Shown here in pieces: positions 9,744 to 19,994 of a stretch of DNA of 64,000 nt (position 1 is its first letter; each line of letters opens with the position of its first letter). This DNA is from Anaerorhabdus furcosa (lineage in GTDB: Bacteria; Bacillota_I; Bacilli_A; Erysipelotrichales; Erysipelotrichaceae), in NCBI RefSeq assembly GCF_900167375.1, contig NZ_FUWY01000005.1:62001-126000 (forward strand). The letters are read 5' to 3'. The translations under genes were made by a program, and so were the position numbers. Below the pieces are notes generated by a model, which saw only the letters and a list, made by a program, of their open reading frames with translations, had not been told where the DNA came from and made no database searches.

Positions 9744-11921
9744 ATGAAAAGAAGCAATCGAATGCTTCTGTTTATATTTACCATTACATTAGTAGTGTCT
9801 CTTTTGATTGCTTCTAATGTTTTTTTAGTATCTGTTGTTAAGGTACATGCAGTAAGTAATACAGATTTAAATGAGTACGCAAATAGTGCAAACATGCGTA
9901 CAGAAATTAAAAAGGCAACACGTGGTTATATTTATGATCGCAATGGCAACATCATTGCTCAAGATAACAAGACTTATAATATTGTTTGTATTCTAGATAA
10001 AAATAGGCCTGCTAAAAAAGGTCAAGTTGCTTATGTTGATGATCCAAGCAAAACTGCAGATGTTTTGTCTGTTCTTTTAGGTGGCGATAAAGAAACAATC
10101 TACAATTTATTATCAAAAGATGTTTACCAAACTGAACTTGGTACAATTGGACGAAATTTATCAAAGGAAAAGAAGGAAGAAATAGAAAGTTATGGACTTA
10201 ATGGGATTGAGTTTACTTCTTCAATTAAGCGTTCTTATCCACTGGGTACATTTGCATCTAGTCTAGTTGGCTTTGCACAATCAGATGAATCAGGTAGTAC
10301 GGTTGGGAAAATGGGAATCGAATTAATATATGATGAAATTTTATCGGGAACTGATGGGTATCGTACATATCAAGCAGATAAAAATGGATTCGTATTACCA
10401 GGAATGAAAGTAACAGAAGTGAGTTCAATTAATGGAAATGATGTAACCTTAACCTTAGATAAAGAAATCCAAGAATCACTTGAACAAGCATTTTTACAAA
10501 CCAATGAAATGTTTAATGCAGATCGTGTTTGGGGAGCTGTCATGGAAGTTGACACAGGTAAAATACTTGCGTGGGGTCAATCACCTTCATTTGATCCAAA
10601 TACCCTTAATATCACGGATTACAATAACTATGGAGCACAACTTCCATATGAACCTGGATCAACCATGAAATCATTTGTATGGGCAGCAGCGATTAACGAA
10701 GGTATGTATGATGGTGAAGCACAAGTGTATTCAGGTCCTTATTGTTATAACTCTAGAGATAAAAATCCATATCGTGTTCAATCAGGAGGAATTCAATGCA
10801 TTACCAATGCAAGTTATAAAAACTGGGGCATGGTAGGATATGATTATGGACTCATTTTATCAAGTAACTCCGTTACAGCTGATTTATTAACAGAAGTAAT
10901 TAATCCAGATATTTATGAAGATTATTTGAATCGTTTCCACTTTTTCCAAGCGGTTGATACGGATGGAATAAGAGAGGAAATTGGTATTAAACATTATGAG
11001 TGGCCAGCTGAAAAAGTAACAGCTTCCTATGGACAAGGATCGACTGTTACAATGCTTCAACTATTACAAGCGTATTCAGCGATTTTTGGTGATGGTAAGA
11101 TGGTGAAACCCTATTTTGTAGAAACAATAAAAGATTCCTATGATAGTCAAAAAATTATTTATCAAGCAGAACCAACGATTGTGGGAGAGCCAATAACAGC
11201 TGAAACGGCTTCACAATTAAGAGATATCTTGTATCGAGTTGTTTATGATACTCAAGGTACAGGAAAACATTACATGATTCCTGAAATTGAAATTTGTGGT
11301 AAAACAGGAACAACACAAGTACTTGTATCGGGATCTTATGCATCAGGAAGGACCATTGCCTCAGTAATGATGGGAATGCCTGCAAATGATCCACAATACA
11401 TTGTTTATTATGCATTTGAAGCAGCATATGATCGTAATGCTCACTATAAAACAGAACCAATTAAAACATTGTTGAGAAAAGTAGCGATGTTAACAAACTT
11501 AACAGCAACAGCAGCTACTACAGAATCGACTGAGTATCCTGAAGAAGGTGAATATCAAAAGAAAGATATTCAAACATATACCATGCCAAATTTGGTAAAT
11601 CATTCTTATGATTATGCAAAATCAAAACTTGAAGGAATGGATGTACCTACCTATGTATTGGGTACAAGCGATACAATCATTGATCAGTTTCCAAAAGCTG
11701 GAGAAAGTGTGTCAACTGGACAAAAAGTTTTTATCTTAACGGACACAGGAGGCTTTTACATGCCAGATTTAGCTGGATGGACTAAGAAAGATGTAACCGC
11801 TCTATGGGAAATCACTGATTTTGGCTTTAAAATAACAGGAAGTGGGCAAGTAGTTTATCAAAATGTTCCTCTGGATGCTTTTGTAACAAGGGACACGGAA
11901 ATTGAAGTTGAACTTCAATAG
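9744..11921 (+). CDS. Division-type class B penicillin-binding protein with PASTA domains
   Basis: A septal transpeptidase (PBP2B/PBP2X/FtsI group) that crosslinks peptidoglycan at the division site. One N-terminal membrane segment (about 7-30) precedes the dimerisation domain (RGYIYDRNGNIIAQ). The active-site motifs are STMK (Ser306), SSN (373-375) and KTG (520-522). After residue about 610 there are two PASTA domains (start YTMPNLVNHSYD; second FYMPDLAGW), which bind peptidoglycan. Length (725 aa) matches PBP2X. It lies downstream of ftsL in the dcw cluster. Confidence 0.95.
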   Translation: MKRSNRMLLFIFTITLVVSLLIASNVFLVSVVKVHAVSNTDLNEYANSANMRTEIKKATRGYIYDRNGNIIAQDNKTYNIVCILDKNRPAKKGQVAYVDDPSKTADVLSVLLGGDKETIYNLLSKDVYQTELGTIGRNLSKEKKEEIESYGLNGIEFTSSIKRSYPLGTFASSLVGFAQSDESGSTVGKMGIELIYDEILSGTDGYRTYQADKNGFVLPGMKVTEVSSINGNDVTLTLDKEIQESLEQAFLQTNEMFNADRVWGAVMEVDTGKILAWGQSPSFDPNTLNITDYNNYGAQLPYEPGSTMKSFVWAAAINEGMYDGEAQVYSGPYCYNSRDKNPYRVQSGGIQCITNASYKNWGMVGYDYGLILSSNSVTADLLTEVINPDIYEDYLNRFHFFQAVDTDGIREEIGIKHYEWPAEKVTASYGQGSTVTMLQLLQAYSAIFGDGKMVKPYFVETIKDSYDSQKIIYQAEPTIVGEPITAETASQLRDILYRVVYDTQGTGKHYMIPEIEICGKTGTTQVLVSGSYASGRTIASVMMGMPANDPQYIVYYAFEAAYDRNAHYKTEPIKTLLRKVAMLTNLTATAATTESTEYPEEGEYQKKDIQTYTMPNLVNHSYDYAKSKLEGMDVPTYVLGTSDTIIDQFPKAGESVSTGQKVFILTDTGGFYMPDLAGWTKKDVTALWEITDFGFKITGSGQVVYQNVPLDAFVTRDTEIEVELQ

Positions 11922-11968: not shown

Positions 11969-12931
11969 ATGATAATCAGTATGCTAGGCGCATTTCTTGT
12001 AAGCACAGGAATCGTTTTAATCTTAATGCCTTACTATATAAATTTCTTAAAAAAAATAAGTTTCAATCAAGCTGTAAGTGAATATAGCTTAGAAGAATAT
12101 CAACAGAAAGCTAAAACACCAACCATGGGTGGTGTTTTATTTGTGATTGTACCTGTTGTTGTTACCTTCTTGTTTATGCCAAGTGCAATTTTTGATTTAG
12201 ATGTTGCGATTATCTTATTGGCGTTTGTTGGGTATGGCGCAATCGGGTTTATTGATGACTATATCATTGTTATTAAACAAGATAATCAAGGTTTATTAGC
12301 ACGACATAAATTTTTACTTCAAGTAATCTTGGCAGTTATTTTCTTTATTGTTTATCAAAGTCATACATCACTTGATATTATGATTCCTATTATTCATACA
12401 GTTGTTCCATTGGGAGGATTGTATGGTGTTCTTATCTTCTTTATGTTTGTGGGTGGAAGTAATGCAGTTAATTTAACGGATGGGATGGATGGTTTAGCAG
12501 CAGGGTGTAGTGTAATTGCTTTTATTCCATTCTTAATCTTTGCACTGCAAACAAGAAATATTGGTATTGTTGTCTTCGTTGCATCATTACTAGGAGCTTT
12601 AGTTGGTTACTTACGTTATAATATGCATCCAGCAAGAATCTTTATGGGTGATACAGGTTCACTTGCGTTAGGTGGTGCACTTGCTGCTGTTGCAATGGTT
12701 TTAAAACAAGAAGTTGCCTTATTATTTATTGGCGGTGTCTTTGTTTGGGAAACTCTGTGTGTCATCATTCAAATTGGTTCAGTTAAGCTAAGAGGTAAAC
12801 GTGTATTCCGCTATACACCAATTCACTATAGTTTCGTTCTTCAAGGGATGAAAGAAGTGAAGGTAGTTCGCTCATTTTGGATTCTTTCACTAATCTGTGC
12901 AACTTTAGGATTTATTATTGCGGTAATCTAA
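11969..12931 (+). CDS. mraY: Phospho-N-acetylmuramoyl-pentapeptide-transferase
   Basis: MraY transfers phospho-MurNAc-pentapeptide from UDP to undecaprenyl phosphate, giving lipid I at the inner membrane face. The protein (320 aa, about ten membrane segments) has the family motifs TPTMGG, GFIDDYIIVIK (catalytic Asp pair), NLTDGMDGLAAG and HPARIFMGDTGSLALGG. SD AAGGGGG is seven bases before ATG. It is the last dcw gene here; murD, murE, murF, ftsW, murG and ftsQ are not adjacent. Confidence 0.97.
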   Translation: MIISMLGAFLVSTGIVLILMPYYINFLKKISFNQAVSEYSLEEYQQKAKTPTMGGVLFVIVPVVVTFLFMPSAIFDLDVAIILLAFVGYGAIGFIDDYIIVIKQDNQGLLARHKFLLQVILAVIFFIVYQSHTSLDIMIPIIHTVVPLGGLYGVLIFFMFVGGSNAVNLTDGMDGLAAGCSVIAFIPFLIFALQTRNIGIVVFVASLLGALVGYLRYNMHPARIFMGDTGSLALGGALAAVAMVLKQEVALLFIGGVFVWETLCVIIQIGSVKLRGKRVFRYTPIHYSFVLQGMKEVKVVRSFWILSLICATLGFIIAVI

Positions 12932-12993: not shown

Positions 12994-13287
12994 ATGCAAG
13001 ATTTTGATATCCATAATTCTCAAATAGAATTAGCTATTGTATTAAAATTACAGCAAATTCAACGTGAAGAATTACCAAATTTAACTTATAAAAATATAGA
13101 AGATGTTCTGTATCAATACAAATGGGTCCATCATCCCCCAAGGTCTTTACATGATGCTGTAAATGATATATTATCTTTAACGGCAGATAAAATTGTAAGA
13201 TACTTGTCAAAAATGGCAATTATAGAGGGTTATAACAAGAATTTATCAGATTATACTGATTTAATAGGAGGAAAGAGTCATGAATAA
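12994..13287 (+). CDS. ComN-like post-transcriptional regulator family protein
   Basis: The 97-residue product has the core NIEDVLYQYKW followed by LHDAVNDILSLTADKIVRYL, which resembles the ComN/YrzD family (post-transcriptional control of comE mRNA in Bacillus subtilis). In B. subtilis that gene also lies close to secDF. The start was set at 12994 because AAAGGAGGGG (12981-12990) immediately precedes it; an ATG at 12973 would put the SD inside the gene. It overlaps secDF by eight bases. Family call rests on both sequence and neighbours. Confidence 0.75.
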   Translation: MQDFDIHNSQIELAIVLKLQQIQREELPNLTYKNIEDVLYQYKWVHHPPRSLHDAVNDILSLTADKIVRYLSKMAIIEGYNKNLSDYTDLIGGKSHE

Positions 13288-15574
13288 AAATACAAAGACA
13301 AAACGCTTAGTTGTATTTTTTGTAACAATTGCAGTCATTGCAGCTGTTATCTTGGGCTTTTCAAATGGGATTTCAAAGCATCTTACTTTGGGGTTAGACC
13401 TACAAGGTGGTTTTGAAATTTTATATGAAGTAAGTCCTTTAGAAGAAGGTGGAACATTACCTGATATGTCAGCTGTTGCTAAAAGTGTCAGCAAACGTGT
13501 CAATGTTTTAGGTGTAAGTGAACCTCAAATTATTATTGAAGGTGATAACCGTATTCGTGTACAACTTGCGGGTGTAGAAAACCAAGATCAAGCACGTCGT
13601 ATGATTTCAGCAACTGCAAATCTTACATTTAGAGATGTGAATGATGAACTACTTGGTGATGCTTCTATCATCCAAGAGGGTGGTGCAACGCTGGCATTCC
13701 AAGATGGAAAACCTGTTGTTTCACTAAAAATTGCTGATACAACTAAATTTGGTGATTTAACAGAAAAAGTATCTACTATGGGTTCTGGTAATAATCTAAT
13801 TGTTACATGGTTGGATTATGAAGATGGTGATTCATACAAAGAAGAAGCAATTAAGCTTCAAAATGGTGGAGAAGCTAAATACATTAGTGCTGCAAGTGTT
13901 ACTCAACGCTTAGATAGTGATGCGATCATTTCGGGAAACTTTACGGAAGCAGAAGCTAGAGAATTAGCTGATTTAATTAGTTCTGGTTCATTGCCTGTAA
14001 AAATGACTGAAATTTCAAGTAATGTTGTTAGTGCTGATTATGGATTAGGAGCTTTAGCATCAACTAGTTTCGCTGGTATTGTGGGTATTGCTTTAGTCTT
14101 TGCATTCATGATTTTCATTTATCGCCTACCAGGAGTTATCGCAAGTATTATGTTAACAGTTTATATTTTCGCTGTATTTGCGATTTATAGTGCAATGGGT
14201 GCAGTATTTACACTTCCAGGAATTGCAGCTTTAGTTCTTGGAGTAGGAATGACTGTAGATGCAAATATCATTACATTTGAGCGTATTCGTGATGAATTGT
14301 ACAAAGGTAGAAGTTTACAAAAAGCTGTAAAAGAAGGTCAAAATTTATCATTCTCGACAATCTTTGATGCTCAATTTACTACATTGCTTGCAGGATTAAT
14401 CATGTATGTGTTTGGAAATGGTGCAGTTAAAGGTTTCGCAACCATGTTGATGATTACAGTTATTTGTACATTGGTTATTAACGTAGCAGTATCTCGTTTC
14501 TTAATGAATCAACTTGTTAATTCAGGTGTTTTAGATAATAAAAAAGGTTGGTTTGGAGTTAAGGTTAGTAAGATTCCAGATGTAACTAAGAATGAAAAAC
14601 AAACTTATTTTGGGCCATTTGATAAAATTGATTTCTTAAAGCATGCTAAGAAGATGATTCTTGTAAGTTGTGCAATATTATCAGTAGCAGTTGTTATGGC
14701 TGGAATTAATACAGCATCAGGAAATGGACCACTTAATCTAGGAATTGATTTCTCAAGTGGGACAAAGATTACTGTAACATCACCTGAAAAAATGAATATG
14801 GCTGATGTTGAAGCTACATTTAAAGATTTAGGTTATGATAAAGTAAAATTCCAAGCATCTGGAGATAATGCAGTTTATGCAACAATCAAAGATGCCCTAA
14901 ATACAGAACAACTAGATGAAATCAAATCAACATTCATGGATATCTATGGTGAGGAACCAGGTGATAACGTGGTTACTCCAGTTGTTGGAAGAGATTTAGT
15001 TAAAAATGCGATTATGCTTAGCTTATTGGCTTGGGTAGCGATGTTAGTTTATATTACATTACGATTTAAATGGGACTATGCTGTAAGCTGTATTGTTGCT
15101 TTACTTCATGACGTAGGTATTGTTATTGCAGTCTTCGTTATCTTCCGTTTAGAATTTAACACTGAGCTTATTTCTGTAATTCTTGCGATTATTGGATACT
15201 CAATTAATAACTCAATCGTTGTGTTTGATCGCGTACGTGAAGATTTAAATAACGCAAAAACTGCAAAATTAACACCTGATTTCTATCGTGGAATTGTAAA
15301 TGAAGCATTGGATAATACGATTGTTCGTTCAGTCTATAGTTCAATCACTACGATACTTCCAATTGTTTGTTTATTAATACTTGGATCAAATGCTATCTTT
15401 ACATTCACATTTGCAATGTTCATTGGACTTATTGCTGGTACATTATCAAGTATCTTTATTGCTCCGCAAATTTGGTTCTATATTCGTACACACATGAAAG
15501 ATAAACCAAAGAAAAAGAAGAATAACAAAAAAGAAGAACTTGAAGAATATACAATCAAAGGTATTAACGCATAA
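13280..15574 (+). CDS. secDF: Fused protein translocase subunit SecDF
   Basis: SecDF uses the proton gradient to help pull secreted proteins out through SecYEG. This 764-residue protein joins SecD and SecF, as in Bacillus. SecD half: LGLDLQGGFEILYEV and the membrane motif GVGMTVDANIITFERIRDEL. SecF half (from about residue 455): LGIDFSSGTKI and IIGYSINNSIVVFDRVRED. Twelve membrane segments are expected, with two large outer domains. The tail is lysine-rich. SD AGGAGG lies in the upstream gene; a strong terminator follows. Confidence 0.97.
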   Translation: MNKNTKTKRLVVFFVTIAVIAAVILGFSNGISKHLTLGLDLQGGFEILYEVSPLEEGGTLPDMSAVAKSVSKRVNVLGVSEPQIIIEGDNRIRVQLAGVENQDQARRMISATANLTFRDVNDELLGDASIIQEGGATLAFQDGKPVVSLKIADTTKFGDLTEKVSTMGSGNNLIVTWLDYEDGDSYKEEAIKLQNGGEAKYISAASVTQRLDSDAIISGNFTEAEARELADLISSGSLPVKMTEISSNVVSADYGLGALASTSFAGIVGIALVFAFMIFIYRLPGVIASIMLTVYIFAVFAIYSAMGAVFTLPGIAALVLGVGMTVDANIITFERIRDELYKGRSLQKAVKEGQNLSFSTIFDAQFTTLLAGLIMYVFGNGAVKGFATMLMITVICTLVINVAVSRFLMNQLVNSGVLDNKKGWFGVKVSKIPDVTKNEKQTYFGPFDKIDFLKHAKKMILVSCAILSVAVVMAGINTASGNGPLNLGIDFSSGTKITVTSPEKMNMADVEATFKDLGYDKVKFQASGDNAVYATIKDALNTEQLDEIKSTFMDIYGEEPGDNVVTPVVGRDLVKNAIMLSLLAWVAMLVYITLRFKWDYAVSCIVALLHDVGIVIAVFVIFRLEFNTELISVILAIIGYSINNSIVVFDRVREDLNNAKTAKLTPDFYRGIVNEALDNTIVRSVYSSITTILPIVCLLILGSNAIFTFTFAMFIGLIAGTLSSIFIAPQIWFYIRTHMKDKPKKKKNNKKEELEEYTIKGINA

Positions 15575-15583
15575 AATAATAAG

Positions 15584-15615
15584 AACTATATTCGTGATGA
15601 ATATAGTTTTTTTTG
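15584..15615 (+). terminator. Terminator after secDF
   Basis: Perfect ten-pair stem AACTATATTC/GAATATAGTT, loop GTGAT, then eight T. Confidence 0.93.
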
Positions 15616-15692
15616 TCATTCTACATGCTAAGTAGGTTTAAAGTAAATCGAGTTAGAATCGCGATAAACTACTTACTTTTTGTGTATTTATT

Positions 15693-15741: not shown

Positions 15742-17106
15742 ATGAATTATACTGAATTAAGACAACAATATCCTAATTTTATTTATCATGACTTTCATAT
15801 TGAAGAGAATGATAGTGAATTTAGAATTACATATGATTTTGAAATAGCAGGCTTGGAATTATTCAATCCAACTTACTTATTTAAAAAAAGAGGAAACCAA
15901 GTTTTTAGTAATAAGAAAATAGTACGAGAACTTGTTTTTTCACTTGGTCTAGTTGAATGCATTAGTTATTGGAAAATCACATGCTCCCCTCATTTAATAA
16001 TTGAATGTGGGAAGCTAAATGATAATCAAATTGCATGGTGGAAGAAACTTTATTTTCATGGTTTAGGAGAATTCTTTTATATTAATCAAATTCAACCAAA
16101 CTTCGATGATTTTATTACATTGAATTGTGTTGGAAAAGAAATTGAAGGTGACATACTAGTACAAGAGTATGTGGGACAATTAATCCCTGTTGGTGGAGGT
16201 AAGGATTCTTTTGTTTCTTTGGAAATATTAAAACCATTATTTGAGGAAAATGATGCGTTTGTTATCAATAAAGTAATGTCTGCGATTCATGCAAGTATTG
16301 CTGCTGGATATGAAGAAAAGTTGGTTTATGTAAGCCGTTCATTAGATGCAAGAATGTTAGAGTTGAATAAGAAAGGTTATTTAAATGGGCATACACCATT
16401 TTCTGCAATGGTTGCTTTTGCATCGACGCTTGCTGCAGTATTAAATCAAAAGAAATACATTTGTTTATCCAATGAAGCAAGTGCTAATGAATCAACTGTC
16501 TTAAATGATACAGTAAATCATCAGTATTCAAAGAGTTATGAGTTTGAAAAAGATTTTAATGAATATAGCCAACAATATTTAGTGCCAGAAATTGAATATT
16601 TCAGTTTACTACGTCCTTTATCAGAACTTCAAATCGCTAAAATCTTCTCTAAATCGGTGCAATATCATTCGGTATTCAAAAGTTGTAATGTAGGAAGTAA
16701 ACAAGAGATTTGGTGTTGTCATTGTGCTAAGTGTTTATTTGTTTATTTACTTATGGCTGCTTATTTAGAAGATGAAGATTGCGTATCTATTTTTGGTCAG
16801 GATATGCTAAATAATGAAGAACTCTATCCAATCCTCATGGAATTATGTGGATTAAGTGAGAATAAACCTTTTGAGTGTGTAGGTACAAGAGAAGAAGTAG
16901 TTGCAGCTATTTCGCTTGGCATTGAAAAACGTGTTAAACAAAATAAACCACTAGGTATTTTGTATCAAAAGTATTTGAATCAAGTTGGAACACTAGAATT
17001 AATTTCACTTGATGAAATTAAAGGTGAATGGAATGATGAACATCAAATTCCAAATCACTTATTGAATTTAGTAAAAGAAAAAGTTGAGGAAGCATTCTAT
17101 GATTAA
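15742..17106 (+). CDS. murL: MurL-like UDP-MurNAc-L-Ala-L-Glu epimerase
   Basis: MurL, first described in Xanthomonas, epimerises the terminal L-Glu of UDP-MurNAc-L-Ala-L-Glu to D-Glu in an ATP-dependent reaction, replacing glutamate racemase. This 454-residue protein has a PP-loop-like ATP site PVGGGKDS (GGGKDS at 151-156), then LSNEASANEST and a Cys-rich stretch (SCNVGSKQEIWCCHCAKC), the layout I recall for MurL. The next gene is a MurD-type ligase overlapping by eight bases, which is the MurD2-MurL pairing. Start set at ATG 15742 by the GAGAGGT SD and the promoter. Assignment is by motif recall and context, not by search. Confidence 0.8.
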   Translation: MNYTELRQQYPNFIYHDFHIEENDSEFRITYDFEIAGLELFNPTYLFKKRGNQVFSNKKIVRELVFSLGLVECISYWKITCSPHLIIECGKLNDNQIAWWKKLYFHGLGEFFYINQIQPNFDDFITLNCVGKEIEGDILVQEYVGQLIPVGGGKDSFVSLEILKPLFEENDAFVINKVMSAIHASIAAGYEEKLVYVSRSLDARMLELNKKGYLNGHTPFSAMVAFASTLAAVLNQKKYICLSNEASANESTVLNDTVNHQYSKSYEFEKDFNEYSQQYLVPEIEYFSLLRPLSELQIAKIFSKSVQYHSVFKSCNVGSKQEIWCCHCAKCLFVYLLMAAYLEDEDCVSIFGQDMLNNEELYPILMELCGLSENKPFECVGTREEVVAAISLGIEKRVKQNKPLGILYQKYLNQVGTLELISLDEIKGEWNDEHQIPNHLLNLVKEKVEEAFYD

Positions 17107-18415
17107 GAGTGGAATTATTCAAGAATTTGAAAATAAGAAAATTGCGATTTGGGGATTTGGCCTTGAAGGCAAATCAACATTTTCTTTTATTCGAAAATAT
17201 CTTCCCAATCTATTTATAACAATAGTAGATGATAATGAAATTGAATTTGATGGACCGCATTGCGTCACACAACTTACTAATAACACGGATTTTAATGATT
17301 TTGATATCATTATGAAAAGTCCAGGTATTGTGATTCATGACAAGAAATTTCCACTTGATAAATGTGTTAGTCAATCCCAATTGTTTTTGAAGTATTATAA
17401 GAAACAAGTCATTGGTATTACAGGTACTAAGGGAAAGAGTACAACAAGTTCATTACTTTATCATGTATTGAGCCTTACTCATCCTTCAGTTTTTTTAGTG
17501 GGAAATATCGGTGTGCCATGTTTTAATATCATCCCAGAATTAAATGAAGATTCAATCGTTGTATTTGAAATTTCATGTCATCAACTTGAATATGCAAAAG
17601 ACTCACCACACATTGGTGTTCTATTGAATTTATTCGAAGAGCATTTAGATCATTATGGTACTTTTGAAAAATATTGTCATGCCAAATCCAATGTATATAG
17701 GCATCAAGAGGATAGTGATATTGCAATCATAAACCAAGATTGTTTAAATTTAGTGCCAACCTGTTCACATGCAATTCTTGCATCGATTAATTCCTCTGGT
17801 GATATTTATGCAGAAGGTACAAAACTAGTGAATCCAAAGGGTACAATTGAAATTGATCCAAACAAGGTAGCACTAATAGGGCATCACAATTATTACAATA
17901 TGGCAATTGTTTATGCCATTGCATCAAATTATTATCATGTGAGTAATCAAGATTTTTTAGATGCGATTGCAACATTTAAAACTTTGCATCATCGTCTAGA
18001 AAATATTGGAACTATCCATGGTGTGCGTTATATTGATGATTCAATTTCTACGATATGTCAATCAACAATCCAAGCAATTACTTCACTTCATGATGTGGAT
18101 ACAGTTTTAGTAGGCGGGTTAGATCGTGGGATTGATTATGTTGAATTAATTGATTTCTTGATAGAAAAACAAGTGCCTCATGTTATTTTTATGTATGCTT
18201 CAGGTGAAAGAATGTTTGGTATTTGGACAGATAAAACAGAAAGAGAAGCAATTTGGGTAAAAGATTTACAAAGCGCTGTTGCTTTAGCGAAACAAATTAC
18301 AACAAAAGGAAAGTCTTGTTTATTATCTCCTGCATCAGCAAGTTATGGCTATTTTAAGAACTTTGAAGAGCGTGGGGATGTATTTAAAGAATTGGTATTG
18401 AATGATGAAATATAA
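17099..18415 (+). CDS. murD2: MurD-type ligase, probable MurD2 (L-glutamate-adding)
   Basis: A Mur ligase of 438 aa: Rossmann-like N-terminus (KIAIWGFGLEGKST), ATP loop GITGTKGKSTT, the middle-domain EISCHQLEYA, and the C-terminal HHRLENIGTIHGVRYIDDS. Ordinary MurD adds D-Glu to UDP-MurNAc-L-Ala; MurD2 adds L-Glu, which MurL then epimerises. The choice of MurD2 rests on overlap with murL and on the absence of murD from the mraY cluster. Start set at ATG 17099 after GAGGA; a TTG at 17084 is less likely. Overlaps recJ by 14 bases. Confidence 0.85.
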   Translation: MIKSGIIQEFENKKIAIWGFGLEGKSTFSFIRKYLPNLFITIVDDNEIEFDGPHCVTQLTNNTDFNDFDIIMKSPGIVIHDKKFPLDKCVSQSQLFLKYYKKQVIGITGTKGKSTTSSLLYHVLSLTHPSVFLVGNIGVPCFNIIPELNEDSIVVFEISCHQLEYAKDSPHIGVLLNLFEEHLDHYGTFEKYCHAKSNVYRHQEDSDIAIINQDCLNLVPTCSHAILASINSSGDIYAEGTKLVNPKGTIEIDPNKVALIGHHNYYNMAIVYAIASNYYHVSNQDFLDAIATFKTLHHRLENIGTIHGVRYIDDSISTICQSTIQAITSLHDVDTVLVGGLDRGIDYVELIDFLIEKQVPHVIFMYASGERMFGIWTDKTEREAIWVKDLQSAVALAKQITTKGKSCLLSPASASYGYFKNFEERGDVFKELVLNDEI

Positions 18416-19994
18416 GAAAATTGAAGTCGATTCAAATGAGATCGAACAAAGACTAAATACTAGCACTTTGGTAAGCAAAGTGGTTGCTTTTCGTAAGTGC
18501 ACTGATGATCAAATCAATCAATTGCTTACCCATCAACCAACTTTGACAAAGAATCCTTCGCATGCCTTAAAGGAAGTATGTCAAAGATTACTTCTTGCTA
18601 AGGAGAACAAAGAAAAAGTATTTGTAGGTGGTGATTATGATGCGGATGGAATTTGTGCTACATCCATCATGGTGGATACACTAAATTTGCTTGAGATTGA
18701 AAATGGCTATTATATACCCAATCGTTTTAAAGAAGGTTATGGGTTACATCCCAATATCGTGCAACTTGCATATGACAAAGGATATCAAATCATTATTACA
18801 GTAGATAATGGTGTTAAGGCATTTGATGCATTGAAACTTGCAAAAGAATTGGGAATCGAAGTGATTATTTTAGATCATCATGAAATTGAAGAAAATCCAG
18901 AATGTGCTTATCTTTTACATCCTGATTTATTTGAAGAACCTTTTAAAGGTTTATCTGGGGCGGGAGTTACGCTGCAAGTTGCAAATGAATTAGTAGGTAG
19001 AAATCACAAACATATTGCTTTAGCATGTGTTGCAACAATGGGCGATATCATGAATCTTTGGGGTGAAAACCGTACGATTGTTCGTTTGGGTTTGGATATT
19101 ATCAATCAGCATCTTGTACCACATATGGATGCTTTATTGGATACAAATTCAAAAGTTACTGAAAAAGACGTTGCGTTTCAAATTGTACCTAAACTTAATG
19201 CCGTAGGACGTCTTCAAGAAATGGCAAATCCAAACAATGTAGTGAAGTTTTTCTTGCAAAACAATCCCAATGAAATAAAACAATTTGCGCTACAGATGAA
19301 TGAATTAAACAACCAAAGAAAACAGATGACACTTCAAATGAATGTACTAGCTGAGAAAAAGAATTTGGATGATGATTTTATCATTGTTCAAGATGAGCGC
19401 TTCCACGAAGGGTTAGTAGGACTTCTTGCGGGGAAACTTGCAGGGAAGTATAAGAAACCATCACTTGTTTTTTGTGAAACAGATGAACTAATAAAAGGGA
19501 GTGGAAGAACAGCGAATGGATTTGACTTGTATAGTTTCTTTGCTGTTGGTTTTGAAGATGAGTTTGTAAATTTTGGTGGGCATAGTGGTGCCATTGGATG
19601 TTCAATCAAAAAAGAAAAGTTTGAGCAATTCAAAGACAAAGTAAAAGAAAAATTTGCTCATATTGAGCCTCAACAAGAAATCCTTGAAGAAGCATGCACT
19701 ATTAGTGCAAATGATCTATCTTTATCAGCTGTTCATGAATACTTAGATTTAGCACCATTTGGACAAGGCTTTGCCGAAGTTATCTTTGCAGTTGATGATT
19801 TGAAAGTGGTTAGTACACAATTAATTAAACAAAAATTCCTGAAAATAAAATTTGAAAATAATATTGAGGCAATCTGGTTTGATGTAGATCCAAGTATCAA
19901 AGTAGAAGAATGTAAAACTGTCTACGCCGAGGTTACAATCAATGAATTTCTAGGACGTAAAAAGTGCTCGTTAATTGTTAAAACAATAGAATAA
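18402..19994 (+). CDS. recJ: Single-stranded-DNA-specific exonuclease RecJ
   Basis: RecJ is a 5'-3' ssDNA exonuclease in recombination and mismatch or base-excision repair. DHH-phosphoesterase motifs: GGDYDADGICATSI, TVDNGVKAFD, LDHHEI, and in the DHHA1 part GSGRTANGFDLYSFF and FGGHSGAIG. At 530 aa it is shorter than Bacillus RecJ (which has an extra C-terminal domain) and close to the minimal core. Two ATGs (18402, 18405) overlap the murD2 end. The order recJ-apt-rel is conserved in many Bacillota. Confidence 0.95.
   Translation: MMKYKKIEVDSNEIEQRLNTSTLVSKVVAFRKCTDDQINQLLTHQPTLTKNPSHALKEVCQRLLLAKENKEKVFVGGDYDADGICATSIMVDTLNLLEIENGYYIPNRFKEGYGLHPNIVQLAYDKGYQIIITVDNGVKAFDALKLAKELGIEVIILDHHEIEENPECAYLLHPDLFEEPFKGLSGAGVTLQVANELVGRNHKHIALACVATMGDIMNLWGENRTIVRLGLDIINQHLVPHMDALLDTNSKVTEKDVAFQIVPKLNAVGRLQEMANPNNVVKFFLQNNPNEIKQFALQMNELNNQRKQMTLQMNVLAEKKNLDDDFIIVQDERFHEGLVGLLAGKLAGKYKKPSLVFCETDELIKGSGRTANGFDLYSFFAVGFEDEFVNFGGHSGAIGCSIKKEKFEQFKDKVKEKFAHIEPQQEILEEACTISANDLSLSAVHEYLDLAPFGQGFAEVIFAVDDLKVVSTQLIKQKFLKIKFENNIEAIWFDVDPSIKVEECKTVYAEVTINEFLGRKKCSLIVKTIE

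Follow-up and report, generated by a model that had tools for sequence, protein, structure and literature searches.

Within the window, the 64,000-nucleotide stretch of the Anaerorhabdus furcosa genome analysed here, a murL gene is directly followed by a gene for a MurD2-type ligase. The original prediction had described a 454-aa protein with GGGKDS and SNEASANEST motifs that overlaps a ligase gene by eight bases, and both the motifs and the overlap (17099–17106) are present in the open reading frames. The features of the pair are given below; counts for MurL refer to 57 homologues, and those for the ligase to a residue comparison of 53 MurL-linked ligases with 45 canonical MurD proteins of the window's order.

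15742–17106, plus strand: murL, 454 aa; full-length match to the MurL model, predicted QatC/QueC fold
16192–16209, plus strand: PP-loop GGGKDS, residues 151–156; G151–G153, D155 and S156 invariant (57/57)
16468–16497, plus strand: SNEASANEST block, residues 243–252; E245 in 57/57, N244 in 55/57, E250 in 54/57
16684–16734, plus strand: four cysteines C315, C325, C328 and C331 (C-x9-CxxCxxC), each invariant (57/57); pattern of the QueC/QatC zinc site
17099–18415, plus strand: MurD2-type ligase, 438 aa; assigned by MurD family profile, residue signature and tree
17429–17431, plus strand: K111 (E. coli N113), in GTKGKS against canonical GxNGKT; K in 53/53 MurL-linked, N in 45/45 canonical
17639–17641, plus strand: E181 (E. 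coli D182, X. oryzae MurD2 E197); E in 47/53 MurL-linked, D in 45/45 canonical
18044–18046, plus strand: I316 (E. coli K319); I in 51/53 MurL-linked, K in 45/45 canonical
18125–18127, plus strand: R343 (E. coli K348, X. oryzae MurD2 R358); R in 53/53 MurL-linked, K in 45/45 canonical

The gene coordinates also bear out two positional claims, that the pair lies between secDF and recJ and that murD is absent from the mraY cluster: secDF (13280–15574) lies upstream of murL, recJ (18402–19994) lies downstream of murD2 and is overlapped by its 3′ end by 14 bases, and mraY (11969–12931) has no adjoining murD. Relatives likewise carry the pair flanked by secDF and recJ, so this is a conserved locus of the lineage, and the order secDF, murL, murD2, recJ, apt, relA is found again in several genera; in three others (g15, g20 and g22) the pair is located elsewhere. 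Pairwise identities of MurL and MurD2 follow those of SecDF, RecJ and RelA (rho 0.57–0.82), consistent with descent in place within the secDF–recJ lineages. A terminator scan 5′ of murL found none at its GC threshold. Between secDF and murL, at about 15583–15616, there is an AT-rich hairpin (AACTATATTC/GAATATAGTT) followed by T8, a possible terminator, such that murL, murD2 and recJ may begin their own transcript.

First, the upstream protein, proposed at the outset to be MurL-like, matches the NCBIfam model NF041275 over its full length (residues 9–446 on model positions 6–445 of 447; E = 2.9e-74, 250 bits), which disposes of one case against the original prediction, a lack of MurL homology. 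This score is under the model's curated equivalog cut-off of 700 bits, which X. sacchari MurL (836 bits) alone among the controls exceeded; the MurL-type proteins of Saprospiraceae, Saccharibacteria, Petrocella and Pseudonocardia scored 218–323 bits, which makes the cut-off a tight Xanthomonadales threshold. Identity between the window's MurL and that of Xanthomonas is only about 29–33%. Against PDB sequences, phmmer returned no match, and a profile search gave weak PP-loop matches only.

A structural model of the window's MurL built on a 16-sequence alignment (pLDDT 91.6, pTM 0.91) found its best structural match in QatC (Z 19.2, 324 residues, 3.5 Å, over residues 9–412), which also came first with Foldseek, followed by QueC (2pg3, Z 13.5) and Cap9 (Z 12.3), with the next PP-loop group, LarE, NcsA and TtuA, well below at about 8.4. 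QatC, a component of the qatABCD anti-phage defence system (PDB 9y01/9y02; PMC13279940), shares with MurL the PP-loop and a four-cysteine zinc pattern, its own zinc being bound by C334, C354, C357 and C360, and in both proteins extensions flank the QueC core on both sides. The two differ in that they are only about 10% identical and that QatC has a partner, QatB, whereas MurL, by analogy, would act on a nucleotide precursor. With QueC, the 7-cyano-7-deazaguanine synthase, MurL is predicted to share the carboxylate-activating ATP pyrophosphatase core; QueC has neither the N- nor the C-terminal extension, and its family's PP-loop is of the SGGxDS type, the first serine of which is a glycine in MurL (GGGKDS). 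Profile alignments of MurL with QueC bring the motifs into register at probabilities of 9% and 2.5%, by themselves too low to settle kinship, with a score of 12.2 against about 4.5 for the best of 30 column-shuffled controls. Taken together, the predicted fold, the PP-loop and the cysteine pattern match those of a QueC-family PP-loop enzyme. The openly accessible papers searched included none naming MurL together with QueC. PADLOC matched neither MurL nor MurD2, so that, for all the QatC-like fold, nothing points to a defence system.

Second, the ligase is a member of the MurD family, scoring 291 bits against TIGR01087 (murD), above the cut-off of 212. The model is blind to the distinction between MurD and MurD2, because X. 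sacchari MurD2 passes it too, at 298 bits. In X. oryzae MurD2, mutagenesis tied L-Glu use to E197 and R358 (E. coli D182 and K348), whose double mutation switches the enzyme to D-Glu, while P433A leaves specificity unchanged; in E. coli MurD, K319T permits L-Glu (PMC8788868). The four signature residues (E, R, I and K) are all common to the window's ligase and X. sacchari MurD2 and distinguish both from the canonical MurD of murI-bearing relatives; at E. coli positions 414 and 416 the ligase has A and Y, as against P and F in Xanthomonas MurD2. A tree from a short search, with long Xanthomonas and E. coli branches, separates all MurL-linked ligases together with Xanthomonas MurD2 from E. coli MurD plus the canonical MurD proteins, at SH-aLRT 98. 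The ligase is thus, judging from its residues and its place in the tree, probably an L-Glu-using MurD2.

Third, the remainder of the genome (2.41 Mb, 11 contigs, 95.7% complete) offers no evident alternative supply of D-Glu. The case that would have spoken against the original prediction, an ordinary murD together with murI elsewhere, was looked for by searching the genome for murI, dat and a second murD, and none was found; nor was any member of the Asp/Glu racemase superfamily or any class IV (D-amino-acid-type) aminotransferase. The ligase is the sole MurD, three weaker Mur-ligase matches being MurE, MurF and MurC. A murI missed in a genome of this completeness is possible but unlikely, because the mutual exclusion of MurL and murI holds across the order. 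Could the ligase nevertheless be an ordinary D-Glu-adding MurD, with the first protein a new kind of free glutamate racemase or other D-Glu supplier? TIGR01087 does rate the ligase as murD, although X. sacchari MurD2 is rated likewise, and the genome has no other D-Glu source that we could find; however, K348R, K319I (or V/L) and N113K distinguish every MurL-linked ligase from the canonical MurDs in sister genomes, as D182E does for 47 of the 53, and X. oryzae MurL showed no racemase activity on free glutamate, and we therefore hold this explanation to be highly improbable.

The distribution of the genes across the order argues in the same direction as the MurD2–MurL reading. MurL occurs in 41 of 196 genomes and strong murI (E below 1e-20) in 144, and the two are together in none (Fisher p 1.9e-32, uncorrected for relatedness). 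Eight MurL genomes have weak racemase matches only; the one case checked, in G152, proved to be an Asp/cysteate racemase. A single genus, g8, holds both states, with murI adjoining a canonical murD in its racemase-bearing genomes. Of 392 genomes sampled from the phylum, only two from outside the window's family clearly have MurL, and both belong to a single further family of the class. Fifteen more distant MurL loci come from sources that include Clostridia, Bacilli, Saprospiraceae, Saccharibacteria and Gracilibacteria (Patescibacteria) MAGs, and in 13 of them a MurD-like gene directly follows murL, the exceptions being one locus whose contig ends there (L016) and one, L019, read with code 25. 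The route had been called rarely noted in Bacillota: the lineage does lie outside the taxa named in reviews, but with 41 of 196 genomes and the distant loci the trait is no one-off.

Several further observations accompany this survey. The Gracilibacteria MurL homologue of L019 has an open frame only with code 25, in which TGA encodes a residue, and no adjoining MurD was found. On Pseudonocardia plasmids (L053 and L054) there is a MurL homologue (about 322 bits) but no MurD2; the homologue faces a WD40-repeat gene, near a sigma-factor gene, and is possibly a paralogue with another substrate. A record from human faeces labelled “UNVERIFIED: Bacteriophage sp.” (L055, MT836755.1) contains murL together with a murD2-like gene and an ORF resembling an elongation factor, and is probably a bacterial contig mislabelled as phage; a search of IMG/VR for MurL found none. 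Six MurL-bearing genomes (G102, G148, G153, G159, G170 and G190) have a D-aminotransferase-like gene at about 200–250 bits, below the cut-off, of which the window's genome has none. Two genomes given as 98–99% complete (G041 and G062) have no match to murD, murI or MurL, reflecting either wall-less organisms or a data artefact.

The MurD2–MurL pathway is known in X. oryzae (XOO_1320/XOO_1319) and in the actinobacteria Micromonospora and Salinispora (Feng et al. 2017, as reviewed in PMC8788868 and PMC5808125). The window resembles the Xanthomonas system in its two protein families, in having murL ahead of murD2 (with an overlap in X. sacchari as well), in the MurD2 determinants at E. coli positions 182 and 348, and in the absence of murI and dat; it differs in its low-GC Bacillota host, outside the taxa covered by those reviews, in its divergent MurL and in its locus between secDF and recJ. 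We conclude that a working MurD2–MurL module very probably replaces both glutamate racemase and canonical MurD here. As an interpretation, the proposal that L-Glu is added and then epimerised on the nucleotide precursor, with no racemase, largely holds, given the MurL match, the MurD2 residues and the lack of murI.

How might the inversion proceed? QueC enzymes use ATP for carboxylate activation. X. oryzae MurL uses one ATP, releases AMP and works from L to D only; adenylation of the alpha-carboxylate was proposed, but the authors, seeing no known domain, described the mechanism as unclear. The predicted QueC-family fold offers such a domain and gives the mechanism a concrete form. MurD2 would attach L-Glu to the wall precursor, whereupon MurL, with ATP, would adenylate the alpha-carboxylate of that glutamate and acidify the alpha-hydrogen; the alpha-carbon would then be deprotonated and reprotonated on the opposite face, and the acyl-adenylate hydrolysed to give the D-Glu precursor, AMP and PPi. 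MurE, MurF, MraY and the remaining wall enzymes would keep their usual roles. Substrate stereospecificity, epimerisation, chemistry and the identity of stem-peptide residue 1 are what we infer here, with high confidence in the pathway function in the window's lineage and moderate confidence in the chemistry.

Finally, four relatives have kept the ligase without its partner. Loci L106 (genome G014), L141 (G045), L140 (G139) and L142 (G085) each have a ligase with the MurD2 signature between secDF and recJ. Searches of G014 (one contig) and G045 by HMM, by protein and with the A1 profile found no MurL, and there was no murI, no gene of the Asp/Glu racemase family and no dat match; G085 and G139 likewise have MurD2 without MurL or murI, but do possess an Asp/Glu-type racemase. 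MurD2 and MurL are therefore not strictly inseparable. On the ligase tree the four nest in two places within the MurL-linked clade, which implies at least two losses of MurL that left the MurD2 signature in place. In L140 (6826–7497), L142 (9559–10263) and, with a broken frame, L106 (about 10139–10823), a gene for an HAD-type phosphatase separates secDF from murD2; it was rejected as a MurL substitute because G045 lacks it and because several MurL-bearing relatives have a gap of about that size before intact murL. A tentative scenario, which we think somewhat doubtful as a whole, is that the family swapped murI and murD for MurD2–MurL wholesale and afterwards lost MurL at least twice, keeping the L-Glu-type MurD2, with at least two of the four genomes left without a known source of D-Glu. 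If so, the MurL-less sister lineages would need a third glutamate-inverting route, or would carry L-Glu in the stem peptide. These genomes, which retain MurD2 and wall genes and may have another route, together with the Pseudonocardia plasmids carrying the MurL homologue without MurD2, lend something to the idea that the pair is accessory, acting on a peptide or another nucleotide sugar while wall D-Glu comes from an undetected enzyme or the host; as the window's genome has no MurD besides this ligase and MurL takes the place of murI across the order, we consider this very unlikely.

What is new is thus a MurD2–MurL pathway in a Bacillota lineage, apparently undescribed for this group, and its by-products, the structural assignment for MurL and the MurL-less relatives, are more interesting than pathway membership itself. 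Placement in the QueC family gives MurL, whose sequence matches no solved homologue, a testable catalytic model, and the genomes with MurD2 and without MurL point to a gap in knowledge of how D-Glu is formed. The finding carries a supposedly narrow, pathogen-specific wall pathway into the Bacillota, to a lineage in which it is common, and this bears on the idea of narrow-spectrum inhibitors of MurD2 and MurL.
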